NCBI GenBank assembly: GCA_030156945.1
Contig: JASGLT010000002.1
Location: 1 to 64,000, forward strand
Length of the DNA: 64,000 nucleotides
From: Thermococcaceae archaeon
Lineage (GTDB): Archaea; Methanobacteriota_B; Thermococci; Thermococcales; Thermococcaceae
Direction of reading: 5' to 3'
This document shows positions 24,727 through 39,581 of this stretch, in pieces. The notes under the pieces are model-generated. The model had not been told where the DNA came from and ran no database searches. It saw only the letters and a program-made list of their open reading frames with translations. Position 1 is the first letter of the stretch. Each line of letters opens with the position of its first letter. Made by a program: the position numbers and the translations under genes.

Positions 24727-25344
24727 TCAGCAGAATCCTGACTCTCTATACAACATTTCAACCTCGCGATAGAACTTTTGAAGGAAGTCGTAATCATCAG
24801 GTTCTTCCCCATGCTCTAGCCTGATTTTCTCAATAATTGGAGCATACTTTTCCAAGTACTCCCTGCTGATTTCCAGAACGTCCTCAACGAACTCTCTAAG
24901 CGGGAGTTCAACGACACCCTTGTGCTTGCCCCCGTATTCGGGACAATTGGTGAATTCAAGGAGCTCATTGTGATAGTAAATTCTCGCAATTCGTCCGGTA
25001 GAGCAAGCATAGTAAATACTGTTCCTCTCAACACCCCGATACACCACAACCTCATCCCCTTTTAATCTGAATCCCGCCTCCTCCGCATTCATTCTCTCAA
25101 ACCTAGTTAGTGCCTTCACATGCGGATGCTCTGGCTGTAAAAAGTAATAACAAGCAGTCAATAAATGTTCAAAAAAACCGTAAACATTGCTCTCATCTCC
25201 TTCGAGTTTTCCCTTCCAGCAAGCCCCCACGAGTATGCGGTTTTTTAGCATAAAAACTAAAGAGAACGGGTCTGGAGAGGGCACGTACTCCGTCCAGACC
25301 CTCACAAACATGTGTTTACCCCGCACATCAAAATACTCGATCAT
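24727..25344 (-). CDS. Candidate immunity protein, first paralogue
   Basis: The 205-residue cytosolic protein starts in ATGA overlap with the toxin-like gene, so the two are translationally coupled. It shares Y-H-N-E-L-L, K-H-K-G, E-F-V-E-D-V-L and A-P-I-I-E with the next gene. Base composition is unusual: 19 of 60 bases at 25141-25200 are G or C, against 34 of 60 at 26041-26100 in the N-terminal part of the toxin gene. That drop fits arrival of a toxin tip with its immunity gene. I do not recognise a named immunity family. Confidence 0.65.
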   Translation of the reverse strand: MIEYFDVRGKHMFVRVWTEYVPSPDPFSLVFMLKNRILVGACWKGKLEGDESNVYGFFEHLLTACYYFLQPEHPHVKALTRFERMNAEEAGFRLKGDEVVVYRGVERNSIYYACSTGRIARIYYHNELLEFTNCPEYGGKHKGVVELPLREFVEDVLEISREYLEKYAPIIEKIRLEHGEEPDDYDFLQKFYREVEMLYRESGFC

Positions 25345-26756
25345 CCCTTAACCCTCCATCCAAGGTACCTGTTATACTCCCACACAGCACTACCCTTCAC
25401 CGGATACACCGTCTTCAGGACGAATTCACCCTTTTCGAACCTGAACTCCAGCTGAACAACATCAACCCCATCAACATGCAATCCAAGCTTCTTAAGATCC
25501 ACTGGAATCCCAAAGTTCCTGTTGGGCACCCCATTCTTAAAGAATTCTTTTTGATAATCTGGGTCCTTGAGGGCTCTTTCTACTACCTCATCAAGGAACT
25601 CTCTAAGCTCACTTTCATCCTTGAAGACTTTTGGAAGCTGAACAACCCTTCCAGTTTCGGGATCGATGATTTTCTGACCTAAAGGCCAGAAAGTAGTAAC
25701 GGGCTTTCTTGGACTCGTCATTTCATATCCCCACACATGCCTTAGGAAGGCATGGAGAAGTCCGCCCTTCTCGAGTTCAGCTCCCTTCTCAAGGACTACT
25801 TTGTACCTATTTCCGCTGTTACTGACTGCGAAGGATGAAGACTTCTCTGCAAACTTCTTAACCCCTTCCTTTATCTCCTTTATCGTCGCGCCGTGCTTGA
25901 CCGTCTCCTCGACGGCCTCCTTTGAAACTCCAGCCCTGACGAGGTCATCGAGGGCCTTCGCGGCATCGTCGCCATGCTTTACTATGTCGTCGAATATGTG
26001 GGCGAACCTCTCCTTGGCCCTGACGACCCCATCACCAACCTCCTCAACGAGGTCGAGGCGCTTCAGCGTGCTGTAGAGCTTTCCAGGAACCTCAACGAGT
26101 TCATCACCGTGCCTTAGCACGCCTACCAGCTCATCGCCCTCCATAGCTAGGCTGAAAACGAACACCGAACCAGCGGCGACGGTGCACTTTATCGAGTCCT
26201 CTCCGTAGTCGGAACATGCATTATAGGCATCGTAGGCGTCCCAGAGTGCAAATCCAACCGAAACTATTGCCCCGATGATAACTGGAATTGGGACGAGCTG
26301 CGGTCTTATCTCTCCGTCTCCCCAGGAATAAGTGGTCGTATAGCCCGTCGAGAAGACCCTCGGTGCGGATTGTGGCTCTAGCCTCACCCACGAGCTCATG
26401 AAGATCCCGTTTCCAGATGTGATGCGCAGTTTGACGTAAACTGGCTCCCGGACGTTGAGGAAAACCGCAACCTTCTTGCCCAAGGGCTTCAGCCGGCCGA
26501 GGCTGACTTGCTCTGTGATGGTTCTCCCGTCACTGCTGATGAACACGGTGCCGTAGCCGGAGAGGCAGTTGGGCGGAACGTCCCATGTTACGACCGCGAT
26601 GTTGCCGGTCTGTTCAACGCCGTCGAGGCGGATTGGGTAGGCCCCTGAGCTCGCTCCAAAGATGGAAAGCCCTGACCACGGCAGGGAAACGGCGGAGACT
26701 CCGGGCAGCGTCAGCAAGAGCAGGAGAACCAGCACCCCAACCATCCGGCGGTTCAT
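25341..26756 (-). CDS. Putative secreted polymorphic toxin with BECR-like RNase tip
   Basis: The 471-residue protein has a signal peptide (1-22), a beta-rich region to about 150, a hydrophobic pre-toxin-like region at 157-205 (I-G-A-I-V-S-V-G-F-A-L-W-D-A-Y-D-A), a helical linker to about 310, and a C-terminal domain of some 155 residues. That domain has H335, R339 and H340 in H-A-F-L-R-H, then T-T-F-W-P at 354-358 and a terminal K-T-V-Y-P at 448-452. This resembles the BECR-fold RNase toxins (barnase, EndoU, colicin D/E5, RelE). The ATG at 26756 follows GGAGGTGA. The start of the next gene overlaps its stop. Family assignment is by motif memory and needs a profile search. Confidence 0.6.
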   Translation of the reverse strand: MNRRMVGVLVLLLLLTLPGVSAVSLPWSGLSIFGASSGAYPIRLDGVEQTGNIAVVTWDVPPNCLSGYGTVFISSDGRTITEQVSLGRLKPLGKKVAVFLNVREPVYVKLRITSGNGIFMSSWVRLEPQSAPRVFSTGYTTTYSWGDGEIRPQLVPIPVIIGAIVSVGFALWDAYDAYNACSDYGEDSIKCTVAAGSVFVFSLAMEGDELVGVLRHGDELVEVPGKLYSTLKRLDLVEEVGDGVVRAKERFAHIFDDIVKHGDDAAKALDDLVRAGVSKEAVEETVKHGATIKEIKEGVKKFAEKSSSFAVSNSGNRYKVVLEKGAELEKGGLLHAFLRHVWGYEMTSPRKPVTTFWPLGQKIIDPETGRVVQLPKVFKDESELREFLDEVVERALKDPDYQKEFFKNGVPNRNFGIPVDLKKLGLHVDGVDVVQLEFRFEKGEFVLKTVYPVKGSAVWEYNRYLGWRVKG

Positions 26757-26799
26757 CCATTCACCTCCAGATGGTTTCAACAATGGATGAATAATCCAG

Positions 26800-29001: not shown

Positions 29002-29183
29002 TATTCCCCATCCACCTCATACACAATTATCCTGACTTTCTTGCCCTTAATAGCCTCTTTGAGCTCCCACCAGAGTGTTGTAGGCTCTTCGCTCCTGTGA
29101 GTAAGCTCCTGACCGTTTTCGAGCTTTACCTTTTTTTCTGAGTACTTAACAAAAACGCCATCCTTTCGGAATATCTCCTTCAT
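29001..29183 (-). CDS. 60-residue protein of the HD/DUF4392/HAD operon
   Basis: This small charged protein (E-K-K-V-K-L-E-N-G-Q-E-L in the middle, V-R-I-I-V-Y-E-V-D at the end) looks like a compact beta-rich fold. Its start overlaps the stop of the HAD gene by ATGA and its stop overlaps the next start by one base, so it is certainly placed as a gene. No family is recognised. Confidence 0.7.
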   Translation of the reverse strand: MKEIFRKDGVFVKYSEKKVKLENGQELTHRSEEPTTLWWELKEAIKGKKVRIIVYEVDGE

Positions 29184-29824
29184 AGACTTCCCCCCAGCAG
29201 TTTTCTGAGCTCATGAAGGGTGTGAATCTCATAATCTGCCATGTTGTAACCTTTATCACCCTTTCGGTTTATCCATACCGCGAGCATTCCAACCTCCTTG
29301 GCACCGTATACGTCCTGAGTAAGCGAATCACCCACCATCATAGCCTCTGAGGGCTCTATATCCAGTAAGTCCAGTGCATAAAGGAAGATCTTCGGGTGTG
29401 GCTTTATGGCTCCCACGTCATCTCTCGTGACGATTGCATCAAAATACCCCTCCAGTCCAGCCAGCCTGAGCTTCAGACGCTGGTATGAGGGTCCACTTGT
29501 GACGACTCCGAGCCTGTATCCCTCCTCCTTCAGCCACTCAAGGACGGGAACGGTGTCTGGAAAAACGTGAAGTTTGTGGGGATACCTTTCGAGAAGCTCC
29601 TCATATCGAAGCTCCAGATCAAAAAGGCTGAAAAAGAAGTTCCAGTCGTGCCACTCATAGGTTTCCCACCGCTTGAATATCTCTCCAAGAAACCGTTCCC
29701 TGGCAAGCTCTTTTGGTATCCCAAGCTTTTTTGAGAGCCTTTCATAAACCCAAGGCAGAAAAAGCATCATGAGGGGCCTCTCGGTAAGGAGGGTCTCGTC
29801 GATGTCAAAGAGAACGGCCCTCAT
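29180..29824 (-). CDS. HAD-superfamily phosphatase
   Basis: The 214-residue protein has the HAD nucleophile motif F-D-I-D-E-T-L at 6-12, motif II V-T-S-G near 108, the lysine in I-K-P-H-P-K, and motif III G-D-S-L-T-Q-D-V. A helical cap lies between motifs I and II, so it is subfamily IA, similar to phosphatases known from Thermococcus and Pyrococcus. It opens the operon that runs on to the 60-residue, DUF4392 and HD genes. Substrate unknown. Confidence 0.87.
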   Translation of the reverse strand: MRAVLFDIDETLLTERPLMMLFLPWVYERLSKKLGIPKELARERFLGEIFKRWETYEWHDWNFFFSLFDLELRYEELLERYPHKLHVFPDTVPVLEWLKEEGYRLGVVTSGPSYQRLKLRLAGLEGYFDAIVTRDDVGAIKPHPKIFLYALDLLDIEPSEAMMVGDSLTQDVYGAKEVGMLAVWINRKGDKGYNMADYEIHTLHELRKLLGGSL

Positions 29825-29825
29825 C

Positions 29826-30578
29826 CTACCACCTCTTGACCAACAGGGCGAGAATCTCAGCCTCCTTACCGAGATCTGGGTCCGTTACAACACCCCATAT
29901 CACGTCCTTCTCGGAGAGTATCTCCTGGAACTTGGCAAGAATCCCGTGAGCATCTTTTAGGGGGGCCTCCTCCCCGATCAGAAGGGCAATGAGGCCACGA
30001 TCCCAGATGCCCCAGTGCCATTTGAAGTCTACTCCCCTAAGGATTCTCAGAATCCCCACGTTTCCTCCCTTTATCATGTTGAAGAGGTCCGCGTAGTCTA
30101 TGTTGACGAGCATCTCGTTTTCGAGATAGTAGTGAAGTTTTGTGAACATTCTCCCTATGGCCCTCGCGGCCTGGGAATAAGCCTGATGGATGGGGACATC
30201 ACTCCTCAGGAACTCCCAGAAGGAATCGTAGAACACGGTCTCGAACCCGTCTGCCCAATTGGGCTTTTCTTTTTTAACAAGCTCTTTCCGAGGCGTTAGA
30301 ACGTAGGCCAGCTTTATCACCCTCTGGGGCAGGCTCTCCATTATTAGGCTCACAAGCTCAAGGTTTATTGTTTTGTCCTCAAAAACGAGCCAGAGAAAAG
30401 AGTCTTCGGGGATGTTCGAGAAAAAGTTCCTAAGCCTGTCTTCGTAATTACGGGAGCTCGAAAGAAGGTAGTAAGCAGGGTTAATCCCTATCCGATTAAC
30501 CCCTTCTCCATCCAATACTTCAACTACGAGGCTCCCCGCATGACCTATTCCAACAAAAAAATGATTAAAGGACTTCAT
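29826..30578 (-). CDS. Divergent FtsZ/tubulin-superfamily protein lacking the GTP loop
   Basis: The 250-residue protein resembles FtsZ in several places: V-G-I-G-H-A-G at 10-16 (nucleotide-binding start), G-I-N-P-A near 32, a V-N-I-D-Y-A-D-L-F-x-M-I-K-G-G segment near 158-172 (FtsZ: I-N-V-D-F-A-D), and D-V-I-W-G-V-V-T-D-P-D-L-G near 228-240 (FtsZ: N-V-I-W-G). The tubulin signature GGGTGT is absent. It may be a non-GTPase relative of FtsZ that caps or scaffolds filaments. It starts two bases before the HAD gene and eight after HPS-PHI. Confidence 0.65.
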   Translation of the reverse strand: MKSFNHFFVGIGHAGSLVVEVLDGEGVNRIGINPAYYLLSSSRNYEDRLRNFFSNIPEDSFLWLVFEDKTINLELVSLIMESLPQRVIKLAYVLTPRKELVKKEKPNWADGFETVFYDSFWEFLRSDVPIHQAYSQAARAIGRMFTKLHYYLENEMLVNIDYADLFNMIKGGNVGILRILRGVDFKWHWGIWDRGLIALLIGEEAPLKDAHGILAKFQEILSEKDVIWGVVTDPDLGKEAEILALLVKRW

Positions 30579-30586
30579 AACAACCC

Positions 30587-31807
30587 CTACTCAAGGGTTG
30601 CGTGCTTCTTCCTCATATCCTTTTCGGTCTTCTGGAAGGTGGCCATGAGAAGGGCAATGACTCCGTCAAGGAAAACCATTGTGGAGTCCTCAAAGAGGGT
30701 GCCCATCGGGGCAATCCACTTGTACTGGGTTAGCATCTGGCGCGCTATGTAGTCTGTGGGCACGTTGGCCTTTGTCCTTCCAGGAATTTCAACCACAACG
30801 TCTGCAAGCTTTCCAAGAGTGGAGTTAGCGTAGGATGTCAGCGCGACTACCTTTCCTCCCTGGGCCTTGGCAATCTCAGCGGCGTCAACTATGCTCTTTG
30901 TCTCACCTGACCCGCTTATTGCCACGAGCAGGTCACCTTTCTCGAAGGCCGGCGTTATCGTCTCACCAACGACGTAAACGTTGAAGTCCAGGTGCATGAG
31001 CCTCATTGCGAAGGCCTTGCCCACAAGACCGCTCCTTCCTGCACCGTAGATGAATATCTTGTTGGCCCTTATCATCTCGTCGACGAAGCCCCTAACCTGC
31101 TCCATTTTCAGCTTCTCAGCAACGCCCCCGATGTGTTCCACGATGTCTTTCATTGCTTTCTTGATCGTCTGCATGTATTCGCCCCAGAACAGGTCTATTA
31201 TCTTCCTTGTCACCTCTTCGGGGTCCTCTGCTTTTGTTATGGCGCCGCCGACTATGATTATCGTGGCCCCAAGTTCGATGACCTTCGGAATCGTTTCGAG
31301 GTTTAGACCTCCGGCTACGGCAACGGGGACGTTAACAGCCTTAACTACCTTTTCGAGATCCTCAAGGGGGTTCTTGCCCTGGGCCTGCTCATCTATTCCC
31401 GTGTGGACGAGGATGTAGTGTACACCCATCTTCTCGAGCTCTTTTGCCCTCTTGACCTTGTCCTGTACTCCGATCAAATCGACCATCACGCGTATTCCAT
31501 ATTTTCTCGCGACATCAACGGCGTCCTTTATCGTCTTGTCGTCGGCAACTCCGAGAATTGAAACAACGTCCGCACCGTGCCTCGCGGCCATCTCGACCTC
31601 AAGTGCCCCAGTGTCCATTGTTTTCAGGTCTGCAACAATCTTTCTGTCCGGGAAGCGCCTTTTCATGAGCTCAACTGCCCTCATGCCTTCCTTTTTGATG
31701 AGGGGAGTTCCTACTTCAAGCCAGTGGGCCCCGCCCCTGGCAGCCTTTTCAGCTATAAAAATAGCCTGCTCAATGTCGGTAAGATCAAGAGCCACCTGGA
31801 GTATCAT
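30587..31807 (-). CDS. Fused 3-hexulose-6-phosphate synthase / 6-phospho-3-hexuloisomerase
   Basis: The 406-residue protein joins two enzymes of the reversed ribulose monophosphate pathway, which in Thermococcales makes ribulose 5-phosphate from fructose 6-phosphate because the pentose phosphate pathway is missing. Residues 1-212 form the HPS TIM barrel (D-L-K-T-M-D-T-G, V-A-V-A-G-G-L-N). Residues from about 215 form the SIS-domain isomerase (Y-G-A-G-R-S-G-L, S-G-S-G-E-T). The ATG follows GGAGGT. This fused form is typical of Thermococcus and Pyrococcus. Confidence 0.95.
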   Translation of the reverse strand: MILQVALDLTDIEQAIFIAEKAARGGAHWLEVGTPLIKKEGMRAVELMKRRFPDRKIVADLKTMDTGALEVEMAARHGADVVSILGVADDKTIKDAVDVARKYGIRVMVDLIGVQDKVKRAKELEKMGVHYILVHTGIDEQAQGKNPLEDLEKVVKAVNVPVAVAGGLNLETIPKVIELGATIIIVGGAITKAEDPEEVTRKIIDLFWGEYMQTIKKAMKDIVEHIGGVAEKLKMEQVRGFVDEMIRANKIFIYGAGRSGLVGKAFAMRLMHLDFNVYVVGETITPAFEKGDLLVAISGSGETKSIVDAAEIAKAQGGKVVALTSYANSTLGKLADVVVEIPGRTKANVPTDYIARQMLTQYKWIAPMGTLFEDSTMVFLDGVIALLMATFQKTEKDMRKKHATLE

Positions 31808-34406: not shown

Positions 34407-37400
34407 TTACGTGTGCACCTGAGTTTTGAGCTCTTCGTAAAGCTCCACGAGAACCTTTTGGTAGTCCTCCGCTCCCTCTTCAATACGGTCCATTATTTCC
34501 TCCAGTTCCCTCGTTCTCTCCTCGCTCACAAGCTCCCTGTACTTGCTGACGAGGTAGTGATAGACCTTGATGCCCTTCTCCGTCGGAAGAAGCTTTTTCC
34601 TTCCCTTCGTTTCAACCACGTAGCCCCTTCTCATTAGCGTTTCAACGATCTTTGCATAGGTTGAAGGCCTTCCTATCTTTCTCTCCTTCATGAGTGCTAT
34701 GACGTCACCCTGCGTGTAGAGGGAAACCTTTGGAGCCTTCCACTTCTTTGTCTCGACCACCTTGAGTTTTGCCCCCTTCTCCAGCCTTGGAAGCTCCCTG
34801 AGCGGCGGCGAGCGCAGTCTTGTCCAGCCGTCCTCGATTATCTCAACGTAGCCTTCAAGCTCTGCCTTGCCAACGCCGGCGTTGATTACGGCCTTCTCGT
34901 AGAGTATCTTTGCAGGGATCATCTGGCTCGTCATGAAGCGCCTGAATATCATGTCGTAGAGCCTGTAGTGGTTCCTCGTAAGGTTCCTCGGGAGCTGGAT
35001 TATTCCATCGCGGATGAGCTGCATCAACCTGCCGGTGTCTATCGGTCTAGTTGGTCTTATGGCCTCGTGCGCTCCCTCCTCTCCCCACGGTCTGGGTTTG
35101 AAGTACTTTTCGCCGAGTTCCTGGGTTATGTATTCCTTCGCGACCTCTATTCCTGTGTTGCTGACGTGTGTACTGTCAGTTCTGTGGTAGGTACAGTTGT
35201 GGGAGACTGCACCGTTGGAGAGAAAGTTCTCAGTGGTCGTCGTGAAGTCGTAGAGTTTCCCCGTGTAGAGCTCTTCGTCAACCCCCTTCACTTTAACCCA
35301 TGTAACGCCCGCCTCGACGAGGGACTTAAGGAACTCCTTCTCTGGGCTTTCCTCTGCGTACTCAAGCACCTTTGAGAGTTTGTCCCGTGGAATCTCTCCC
35401 TCCGGACGTTTGAGCCAGTTCCAAACGTCGATTACGGTTTCTTTCAGGATTCTGTTCTTGGTGCCGTTTTTGAACTTCAGCTTCCTGAAGACGGGAGCGA
35501 CCGGGAGCAGGTCCCCCTCAAAGGCCCTCCGTGATGCCCTGTAAACGGAATACGCCTCGTCAAACTGCGCCCTTCTAATTCTAAGGTACGGGTATATTTT
35601 CTCCCTGAACTTTTCGAGGCTCCTGTTGCTTATTATCAAGTCCCAAACCCCAGTGCGTTCGTCCCGTCTGAGGTAGTTCATGATGCCGATCTGGTAGAGG
35701 TAAACGCTGAGCATCCTGAGAACGTCGCCCCTCTTTGAGGTCAGGATTCCCCTGAAGTTTGGCCCTTTCATGTCGTTGAGGATGGAGAAAGTTCCATCCG
35801 TGTCAAAATAACCTGCTATCATTGCGTTGATGTACTCCTCACGGAGTCCAAACACGAGCGGGTGAAGCTTTCCTTTTCTCGCTCCAAGTCTCCTGAAGAC
35901 CTCGGCGATGATTGAGTTCGAGAAGCCGACCTGATTAGTCGTTTCAAAGACACGGAGGAACGGGAAAACATCTTCGAGTATGGATTTAACGTCCTTCAGG
36001 GGAGTCTGGGAAATCAAGACCTTGCTACCCCTCAGAGTTCCATCGCCAAGGACGAGGCCGAAGACGTACCAGAACCTCTCGTCAAGTTTGAAGTTGGATA
36101 TGGGCTTTGAGCCTGCCCTTTGGCGGTAGAGGGACTTTACATGGGCCTCATAGTCATCAAAACCCCATTCCTGGAGAAGGTAGAGTGGAAGGACACGCCT
36201 ACGAAGGTATTTGTACTTTGTGCTCGTTGAAATCCTTTCCCTAATGATTGGAGCTACCTTCTCGCTGAAATATTCCTCATCCAGCTCGACCATCACGTCG
36301 GTTATTCCGAGCTTTATCAGGAGTTTGAGGAGCGTGTATTCATCCCTTCCGCGGTGGCCGGTGTTGTAGGCGAAGGCAACGTAGTCCCCTTCCCTGACGT
36401 TCTTGGCGGAGACCCAGCCGAGCTTGCCGTCTCTCATCACGAGGAGACCATGGTCGGGAGTCGCCTTAACTTCGTGCCCATTTTTGAGCTTGATGACCTT
36501 GAGCGGCCCGTTCCAGTCAATCTCCCAGAACTTAAGGGCTTTTGCTTCTTTTGGCTTGAGGCCGTTCACTGAGAGCAGGTTCTCCTCGGACTTCTCCACA
36601 GCGTCCTTTATCTCCATGATCCTTCCGTCTGCAAGGCTAACGAGAGTATCGGGCGTGACACAGAGACCGGCCTCGAACAGATCCTGTGCGAGTCTCATCG
36701 TTTCGGGAGCCGAAAGCTTCAGGAAGGTCGAAGCATCTTTCAGCATCGCGTCCGTGGTGTAAGGTGGAGCTGGGTTAAGCTCCCTCTCCTCGAGCTGAAC
36801 ATCCTCGACGGTTACGTATTCTGGAGCTTCCACATCCTTACCATCTTTTCCGAGCTCAATAGTTACCTGTAAGCCGTTCTCAAGGGTCAGGCCGAGGAAG
36901 TAAACTTCGCTCTCCGTGAACTCCTTATAGCGCTCGATAATCCAGCCGAGAACCGGTGTCTGAACCCTTCCTGCTGACAGGTTGTAGCTCTCAAAGACCC
37001 TCTGGAGCTCCTGGCTCAGCTCGAAGCCTATCCATCTGTCCTCGATTCTCCTAACGATCTGCGCGTTGACGCGGTTCTCGTTGACATCTCTCGCCTCCTG
37101 GATGGCCTTCATGATGGCCGGCCTCGTTACCTCGTGGAACTCTATGCGTTTTATGTTGGGCGTGTACGGGGCGAGGACGTTCCTGATGTCCCAGGCTATC
37201 TTCTCACCCTCGGTATCGGGGTCGGTCGCTATGAGGATTTCATCAACTTCCTGTGCTATCTCGCGCATAGCAATGACGTTCTCAAGGGCGTCCCTGACGT
37301 TGGTTGACCCGCAGCGCGGGCACACTCCCTTCTTCTCCCAGTCCACGAACTGGTGGCCGCAGTCGCGGCATCTCTTGAGGGTGTCGTAAACGGGAATGAA

Positions 37401-39542
37401 CTTAAGCATGTCGCCATCGTTCTGGATTAGAACGCCGTGGTAGCCCTCATTCGTGACGAGGTCAAACATATGCCCACCGCTCGCCAGAATAGTCAGCATC
37501 CTGTCCCCAACGCTTATCTCGTAGGCGACCAGGTCGCCTATCCTCGTCTTGCTCGGCTGACCGAAGAAGTTCGCTATCGTCCGGGCCTTGTTCGGGCTCT
37601 CGACTATCATGAGGGCAGACCTGACGAGGTCTTTGACTTTGGCGCTTATCTTGCCCTCCATAACGAGCCTGACCTTCTCCCTGTCCTCGTCTATCTGCCT
37701 GAGAATCTCATCGAGGTCGAGCTCCTCGAAGGGAACAATCTTGAACTCCTGGAAACGCCAGCGCATCTGCCTGACGAGGCCGTTGAAGACCTTCTCGTTG
37801 TCCACTATGAGAACGCTCAGACCCTTCGTGATTCCGCCCGCGAAGAGCCTGCTCGTCCTTCCCGTTGCCTGGATGTAGGTTCTGACATCGGGTATCTCAA
37901 TGTACCACTTGCCCTCTTCCTTAACCAGGCTTATGAACGGATCCTCGGCGAGCTTTCTGAGAACCTCCTCGTCCCTGAGAACCCTCCTCAAGAACTCGAC
38001 CAGCTCGCGGAAAACGCCGAGAACGTGATTGTGGAACTCGTTCTCTATCGGGAGGCCTTCTGCAAGGGCCTCTTCAATCTTAAGGAGTTCGAACTGCGGG
38101 ATGTTTCTTATAAGCCTCCTCAGGCGGGCATGGAGTTTTTCAGCTGTCCTCCTGTCCTCGTCGCTGAGGAAGTCCATTATCTCGCTTAGCAGGCCCAGGG
38201 CACGGTATATGGTTGGCCTCTCAAGGTCTATACTAAAGCGGAACTTCGGAACGCCTGTGAAGACGGCGTAGCGTATGAGGTGCGGTAAGTCAATACCCCT
38301 GACGAGGGAGCCGTAGTAGGTGGCCGAGCCTATGAGGTAGTCCGCCTCGCCGTTCTCGAACTTCTCAAGGGCCTTCTTGTTCTTGGACGAGACGAGCTCT
38401 ATCTTAAAGCCCCTCTCGCGGAGGTAGTTGGCAAGCTCTTCAGCGTAGCCAAGACCCTGATCAATTGGGACGAATATCAGGCCGCCCTTTCCGAGCCTTG
38501 TGAGGAGCTCCTCAACGTGCTCCTTGATGTCCTTGGTGGGCTTGAGGTAGCTGTCAACGACGTTCCTAAGGGCGCTTCTTCCGCTTCCGACTTCAAAGCC
38601 CAGAAGCTCGCGGTAGAGCTTTATCCTGTCGCCCCTCGCAGAGCCCGTGGCGGAGGCGATTATCATTATTCCAATCTTGTTCTTCTGCTTGAACTTTTCT
38701 ATCTCCCTCTGAAGCTTTTCTATTTCCCTGTTGAGTCCATTCAGCTTCTCATTTCTGTCCTCGGAGTTCCCGTTTAGGTATCTTGACATCTGCTTCTTCA
38801 GCCTGATAATCTCCCAGGCCTTCTGGATTATCTCATCCGTAAAGCCGAGGAGGTAGAGGGAGCGGTCTATGTTCTTGCTCGCCTTAAGGAAAGCGTCGAC
38901 GTCGTCAACGAAGATGAAATCAAAGTGTCTGCCCTTCAGAACCTCTTCATAGTTCCTGGCCAGCCACTGGGCGCTCGTAACGAGGATGTCGTAGTCCTCG
39001 TTCTTGATCCTCTCGAGCATCTCTTCCTTTTCCTTCTTCCTGAGGTTACCGTGGTAGTAGGCGAGCCTGACGTCGGCGTTCGCCTTCTCCATGATGGCCT
39101 CTATCTTCCTGACGGTCTGGATAACCAGAGGGGTCGTCGGGACGACTATGTAGCTCTTCTTGCCCTTGAGAGCGTGCCAGACGGCCATGAAGGCACCAAA
39201 GGTGCTCTTACCCATTCCCGTCGGCGCTATGATGGAGAAGCTCCTCCCCTTGAGAAGCCTCTTTACCCAAGTCCTCTGGGCGCTCCAGAACGTAAAGCCA
39301 GTTGCCTTCTTGAAGAACTCCTCTATCTCCCTCGTCTGGTTCTCGAGCTGGTATATCCTCTCCCACTCCTTGAGAGTCCCCCTGAGTTTAAGTGCCTCCC
39401 TAACGGCAGAAACGAGCTGGAAGTAGGAGTCAGCGTGAACGGGTTCATCGAGGCATTCAAAGCAGGGGTTTTTTGCCACAAGTCGTTCATCGGAAATTTT
39501 GCCCCAGCAGTTGGGACAGCTCTCCCTATAGATGGCCTTCAT
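34407..39542 (-). CDS. rgy: Reverse gyrase with intein
   Basis: Reverse gyrase introduces positive supercoils and marks hyperthermophiles. The 1711-residue precursor has an N-terminal zinc finger (C9, C12, C27, C30), a helicase-like domain with Walker [10 protein letters not shown] at 106-114, a TOPRIM topoisomerase domain starting M-I-V-E-S-P-N-K-A, a second zinc finger C-R-D-C...C-P-R-C, and D-P-D-T-E-G-E. An intein of 489 residues interrupts the protein directly before the active-site tyrosine segment C-T-Y-H-R-T-D-S-T. The ATG at 39542 follows GGGTGGGAGA. The mature protein would be about 1222 residues. Confidence 0.96.
35196..36662 (-). other. Reverse gyrase intein with LAGLIDADG endonuclease
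   Basis: The intein begins with C-V-T-P-D-T-L-V (Cys1) after F-E-A-G-L and ends with S-H-N before C-T-Y-H-R, so all splice-junction residues (Cys1, terminal His-Asn, Cys+1) are present. Two dodecapeptide motifs of the homing endonuclease are seen: L-V-L-G-D-G-T-L and [10 protein letters not shown]. The 489 residues suggest a full, probably active element. It sits in the catalytic site of the topoisomerase, so the host needs splicing for activity. Confidence 0.93.
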
Positions 39543-39581
39543 TCTCCCACCCTCTACTTCCTTATTTTGCAGCAAAAGGTC

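Follow-up and report, generated by a model that had tools for sequence, protein, structure and literature searches.

Within the 64,000-nt stretch of Thermococcaceae DNA analysed here (the window), an open reading frame with an ATG start at positions 29826..30578 of the minus strand encodes a 250-aa FtsZ paralogue without a canonical GTP pocket, which we refer to as the FtsZ-like gene. The gene for a bifunctional 3-hexulose-6-phosphate synthase/6-phospho-3-hexuloisomerase (hps-phi; 30587..31807, minus strand; NF041755, 551.8 bits) lies upstream, with 8 nt between its stop and the start of the FtsZ-like gene, and the gene for a HAD-IA phosphatase (TIGR02253/CTE7; 29180..29824, minus strand; TIGR02253, 177.6 bits) follows 1 nt downstream. 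This order is kept in essentially every locus with data, and in the family loci compared hps-phi sits directly upstream of the FtsZ-like gene and the HAD gene directly downstream. The initial annotation had placed the gene beside central metabolism genes, and the bifunctional Hps-Phi neighbour in its conserved position bears this out. No divisome genes were seen near the FtsZ-like gene, whose operon partners are metabolic. A sigma-70 promoter scan was run at the locus and is uninformative for archaea.

In one clade, a gene for a phosphoglycerate-mutase-like histidine phosphatase, assigned by eye from its sequence, stands between hps-phi and the FtsZ-like gene (L049:4447-5148, L100:7198-7899, and the same position in L050). 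Elsewhere in the window are a reverse gyrase gene with an intein and a LAGLIDADG endonuclease domain detected by Pfam (34407-39575, minus strand), and two overlapping ORFs of 480 and 205 aa with no Pfam match (24727-26783, minus strand). The N-terminus of the 480-aa ORF is secretion-like and its layout resembles that of polymorphic toxins; the 205-aa ORF could be its partner. A relative of the 480-aa gene is present in L052 and L053.

Searched singly against Pfam, NCBIfam, and the PDB (phmmer), the sequence gave too weak a signal to decide on homology, which required family profiles. With the 250-aa protein alone, Pfam returned no match, and the match to the FtsZ model TIGR00065 was marginal (E 0.018; 14.3 bits against a curated cut-off of 295.2). 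When 37 family members were searched, PF00091 was matched by only one, with a best E of 0.053 that falls short of the curated cut-off, and PF12327 (FtsZ_C) was matched by 24 at E <= 1, with a best E of 4.7e-4. A family HMM searched against the PDB retrieved Methanocaldococcus jannaschii FtsZ (E 4.7e-7), with T1/S2, H7-T7, and S8-S9 matched in order, and the same HMM run on whole genomes matched genuine FtsZ genes with E values down to 1.5e-10. Profile-profile comparison with hhalign gave E 1.5e-10 to Thermococcales FtsZ2 and 4.8e-8 to FtsZ1, and no significant match to a CetZ profile; the lowest E among the controls, which were seven unrelated neighbour families and 20 column-shuffled FtsZ2 profiles, was 0.035. 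The global mode of hhalign was not used because it shifted the N-terminal alignment. That the protein is homologous to FtsZ, and that the resemblance is not due to chance, is well supported.

Structural predictions agree with the profiles. AlphaFold2 models, built from an input of FtsZ-like family members only, reached a pLDDT of 84 and a pTM of 0.85 for the window protein, and a pLDDT of 87 and a pTM of 0.86 for an orthologue that is 49% identical to it. For both models, the best 50 PDB matches retrieved by Foldseek were all FtsZ (E of about 2e-11 to 2e-9, probability 1.00, TM-score by query 0.58-0.75). The moderate TM-scores may plausibly be caused by the parts of FtsZ that are missing here. 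Both predicted structures show the FtsZ/tubulin fold, with a nucleotide-binding domain, a central H7 helix, and a GTPase-activating domain. Thus the assignment to the tubulin/FtsZ superfamily made in the initial annotation is confirmed by sequence profiles and predicted fold alike, and the comparison with FtsZ structures that it proposed found a fold of the tubulin/FtsZ type.

The losses around the nucleotide-binding site were defined by comparing 49 FtsZ-like family members with 34 Thermococci FtsZ1/FtsZ2 sequences. The GGGTGT loop had been reported as lost, which is correct: all T4 glycines are absent in 49 of 49 members, and the window protein has no GGGTGTG. At the place of this T4 loop, with eight residues deleted, are strand S4 and then a FEDKxxN motif (residues 61-72; 30363..30398, minus strand, from the alignment; DSSP assigns strand to 61-67 and helix to 70-82), in which N72 is invariant across the family. 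The loss is far wider than the T4 loop alone. In T2, NTDAQ has become NPAYY with loss of the Asp and Gln, 27 residues are deleted over H2/T3, the T5 mini-helix is gone, the T6 Asn is replaced by Tyr in 49 of 49 members, the H7 Asp is replaced by Ser or Ala, and helix H9 is deleted. The C-terminal linker and tail are also missing, together with the conserved peptide for SepF/FtsA; S10 (LLVKRW) is the last element of the protein, and those members that extend beyond it do so by no more than about 10 residues. From these changes we infer that the protein would be unable to hold GTP in the canonical way. A protein that is non-polymerising or differently regulated, as originally suggested, would then be expected as a logical consequence of losing the pocket.

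In contrast to these losses, several FtsZ elements are kept, all on the minus strand. A remnant of the T1 loop, GIGxxG, aligns with FtsZ1/FtsZ2 at residues 10-15 (30534..30551), with G10, G12, and G15 invariant. The T7 catalytic (synergy) loop, MLVNIDYADL, occupies residues 156-165 (30084..30113), and N159, D161, and D164 are invariant in 49 of 49 members. The motif KDVIWGV of strand S9 lies at residues 224-230 (29889..29909), where W228 and G229 are common to all FtsZ1/FtsZ2 compared. The two landmarks singled out earlier, VNIDYAD (158-164) and DVIWGVV (225-231), are thus present, and in the alignment their residues fall position by position on the T7 loop and strand S9 of FtsZ. Shortly after the deleted helix H9, the family has a signature of its own, WHWGIW (residues 187-192; 30003..30020), with W187, W189, G190, and W192 invariant. 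Of 97 columns that are invariant in FtsZ, 12 are identical in all 49 members (G10, G12, G15, P96, A133, N159, D161, D164, L207, L221, W228, and G229).

No other element of the protein resembles FtsZ2 as closely as the T7 loop does, with a mean identity of 57% against 7-31% elsewhere. The active site of FtsZ is shared between subunits: one holds the GTP, and the T7 loop of its neighbour completes the site. In Staphylococcus aureus FtsZ, the residues N208, D210, and D213, which correspond to N159, D161, and D164, extend into the adjacent subunit, where they hydrolyse the bound GTP (PMC8936486). In the longitudinal interface, H10, S9, H8, and T7 of one subunit face the H6-H7 loop, T5, T3, and H1/H2 of the other (PMC8936486). 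The T7-side contact elements T7, H8, S9, and H10 are all present in the predicted models, whereas T3, H2, and the T5 mini-helix of the opposite side are deleted. The strict conservation of T7, which the initial annotation did not consider, suggests that the protein interacts in trans and has not simply lost its function.

We identified a full or near-full orthologue of the FtsZ-like gene in 89 of 94 Thermococcaceae genomes by six-frame search (E < 1e-60, 48-69% identity). A raw tally of 92 was too high, as it included weak matches to ordinary FtsZ in three further genomes. All five genomes that lack an orthologue are multi-contig assemblies in which the hps-phi locus is either absent (G036, G050, and G057) or cut at a contig end (G062 and G064), so no real loss of the gene is seen within the 94 genomes. 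Outside Thermococcaceae, a profile search across the GTDB phylum matched only FtsZ proper. Beyond that GTDB phylum, relatives were sought by conserved peptide patterns only, and the pattern scan of GTDB genome contigs yielded 25 loci, all from Thermococcales/Thermococci. The same genome as the window also encodes FtsZ1, FtsZ2, and CetZ. In genome G069 (L053 = G069:C2, and G069:C3:67937-69906), a second, decayed copy of the locus has a frameshifted FtsZ-like gene beside a damaged hps-phi end; intact hps-phi and FtsZ-like genes are on another contig of this genome.

Selection on the gene is strongly purifying, with a median dN/dS of 0.11 and a maximum of 0.27 over 53 close pairs, which indicates a working gene, and about 50 residues are invariant across the family alignment. 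We considered whether the gene might instead be a decaying, functionless relic of an FtsZ duplication. The long stem branch described below and the one frameshifted extra copy would fit such a relic, but the gene is intact in 89 of 94 genomes with its roughly 50 invariant residues, and the genome with the frameshifted copy also has an intact one. We regard a relic or pseudogene as ruled out by the low median dN/dS together with this retention.

A tree was built from the C-terminal part, where 155 columns could be aligned. In it, the FtsZ-like family forms one clade (support 100/100) on a very long stem of 5.8 substitutions per site, which attaches within Thermococcaceae FtsZ2; the grouping of the family with FtsZ2 is supported at 100/99. 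In AU tests on this 155-column region, grouping with FtsZ1 (p 0.142) or with CetZ (p 0.143) was not rejected. Most likely, to judge from these sequence comparisons, the gene is a duplicated and strongly diverged FtsZ, with FtsZ2 as the best guess for its parent, a choice over FtsZ1 that is not significant. Descent from CetZ was considered and set aside, as there is no profile match; the AU test on this short region does not reject it.

We also noted variation among the FtsZ genes themselves. Most Thermococcaceae FtsZ2, unlike FtsZ1, carry the T4 signature GNGTGTG, with the second Gly replaced by Asn (L032, L070-L074, L078-L081, L109, L112, L113, and L122-L124), while the FtsZ2 in L114 and L115 keep GGGTGTG. 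The substitution could alter GTP handling by FtsZ2. In G094, a genome from a sister family, a third FtsZ-like gene (L107:5957-6937) encodes 327 aa with GGGTGSG and LINIDLAD; it sits on a long branch and is not an orthologue of the pocketless family.

Among known proteins, archaeal FtsZ2 and FtsZ1 are the nearest by profile score and tree, and they share with the FtsZ-like family the fold, the order of elements, the T1 glycines, the NxDxAD of T7, and the IWG of S9. They differ in having the nucleotide-binding residues of T3-T6, helix H9, and a C-terminal tail, and in their length of about 370-420 aa against 250 aa; identity of the FtsZ-like protein to solved FtsZ structures is about 10-15%. CetZ belongs to the same superfamily, but it keeps GGGTGAG and has TLDASD as its T7, where the FtsZ-like family lacks the former and has NIDYAD. 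Thermococcales CetZ lies beside a type IV pilus cluster, in contrast to the hps-phi neighbour here, and some CetZ neighbourhoods hold nucleotide and cofactor biosynthesis genes (PMC9856176). FtsZl-1 and FtsZl-2 are likewise divergent FtsZ-tubulin families of restricted distribution; one is proteobacterial and the other part of a multi-gene membrane-remodelling system, which sets them apart (PMC2875224). A comparison of gene neighbourhoods found no vWA/OmpA/GTPase context of the FtsZl type at the FtsZ-like loci.

We propose that the nucleotide-binding face was dismantled after an FtsZ duplication, while the opposite, T7-bearing face was retained. A subunit with a T7 face and no GTP pocket could join a filament on one side only, and its target would be the GTP-exposed end of a filament or monomer of FtsZ, probably FtsZ2. 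There, its T7 loop would complete the active site of the partner and block further growth at that end, making the protein a cap or a GTPase-activating regulator that is unable to polymerise itself and, with no C-terminal tail, would not be membrane-tethered like FtsZ. Hps-Phi supplies pentose for nucleotides, and the constant position of the FtsZ-like gene in the hps-phi operon suggests that the level of the protein may track pentose metabolism. The simplest explanation for invariant T7 residues, of the kind that act on a neighbour's GTP, in a protein without a canonical pocket is action in trans. We give this reading, a one-sided cap or hydrolysis activator possibly tied to pentose metabolism, a probability of about 0.42. 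SulA and MciZ offer a parallel in proposed action, as one-sided binding to FtsZ stops filament growth; they bind the T7-side end (PMC4929429), are not FtsZ homologues, and the FtsZ-like protein would bind the opposite, GTP-exposed end. The fuller version, in which the Thermococcaceae protein would both cap filaments and activate the GTPase in trans, at the GTP-exposed end and not at the one bound by SulA and MciZ, with its dosage tied to pentose synthesis, is more doubtful.

Several observations complicate the capping reading and bring other explanations forward. One is that the genes sharing the operon are metabolic and do not belong to the divisome. The side chains of H8 and H10 are only 18-31% identical to FtsZ2, so the docking surface around T7 has changed, which counts against capping. 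Furthermore, the face that formerly bound the nucleotide has invariant residues (P96 and, along the former pocket rim, E99, L100, P106, W108, Y117, D118, and S119); it therefore probably contacts something, which pure end-capping does not need. A ligand or partner on this face, possibly linked to Hps-Phi, is a serious rival or addition. The rebuilt pocket might have Hps-Phi itself as its partner, or a nucleotide or sugar phosphate from the Hps-Phi/HAD pathway as its ligand, and the protein might control pentose synthesis, with or without a signal through T7 to FtsZ. Such a regulator or sensor would fit the strict conservation of the operon across family loci, and also the GxGxxG, E99, W108, Y117, D118, and S119 that are among the invariant residues surrounding the former pocket. 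Nevertheless, we consider it somewhat unlikely: a purely metabolic role leaves the conservation of N159, D161, and D164 unexplained, no known ligand motif is present, and Hps-Phi homologues exist elsewhere without an FtsZ-like gene. Bacteria provide a precedent for metabolic regulators of FtsZ in UgtP and OpgH, through which FtsZ can come under the control of sugar metabolism (PMC3723540); these are glucosyltransferases rather than FtsZ-fold proteins, and what they may have in common with the FtsZ-like protein is a coupling of sugar metabolism to FtsZ.

The invariant residues on both faces, with the T1 GIGxxG and several former pocket-rim residues strictly conserved, could also reflect nucleotide-independent self-assembly, in which the T7 face docks on the protein's own remodelled top face to give homodimers or filaments without GTP. 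Self-docking would account for the conservation of T7. We find this unlikely, given that the elements on which the neighbour docks in FtsZ filaments (T3, H2, and the T5 mini-helix; PMC8936486) are deleted. Moreover, the T7 aspartates act on the GTP gamma-phosphate, and a complex lacking GTP would offer little reason for them to be strictly conserved. The invariant T1 glycines would suit a functional GTPase with an unusual site, where T1 and other loops bind a guanine nucleotide in a new way, but with T3, T4, T5, and the base-specifying residues missing in 49 of 49 members this is highly improbable.

No Pfam or NCBIfam model covers the FtsZ-like family. A survey of CetZ reported an extra divergent tubulin-superfamily protein in only two Thermococcus strains (PMC9856176), and Thermococcales receive no more than a passing mention in the FtsZl paper (PMC2875224). 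A search of the open-access journal literature found no paper on the gene; a paper on PF0219 that was considered as a possible report concerns the QueD enzyme. The family would add a fourth tubulin-superfamily gene to Thermococcaceae, the family of the genetic model Thermococcus kodakarensis. Proteins of this superfamily are treated as GTPases by definition, and a pocketless paralogue that is universally retained under purifying selection, with an intact T7, would be a natural one-sided subunit. If this is true, it would be a reagent with which to ask which end of the archaeal FtsZ filament grows and how the ends are controlled. The operon also suggests a link, open to testing, between archaeal cell division and the supply of nucleotide precursors.
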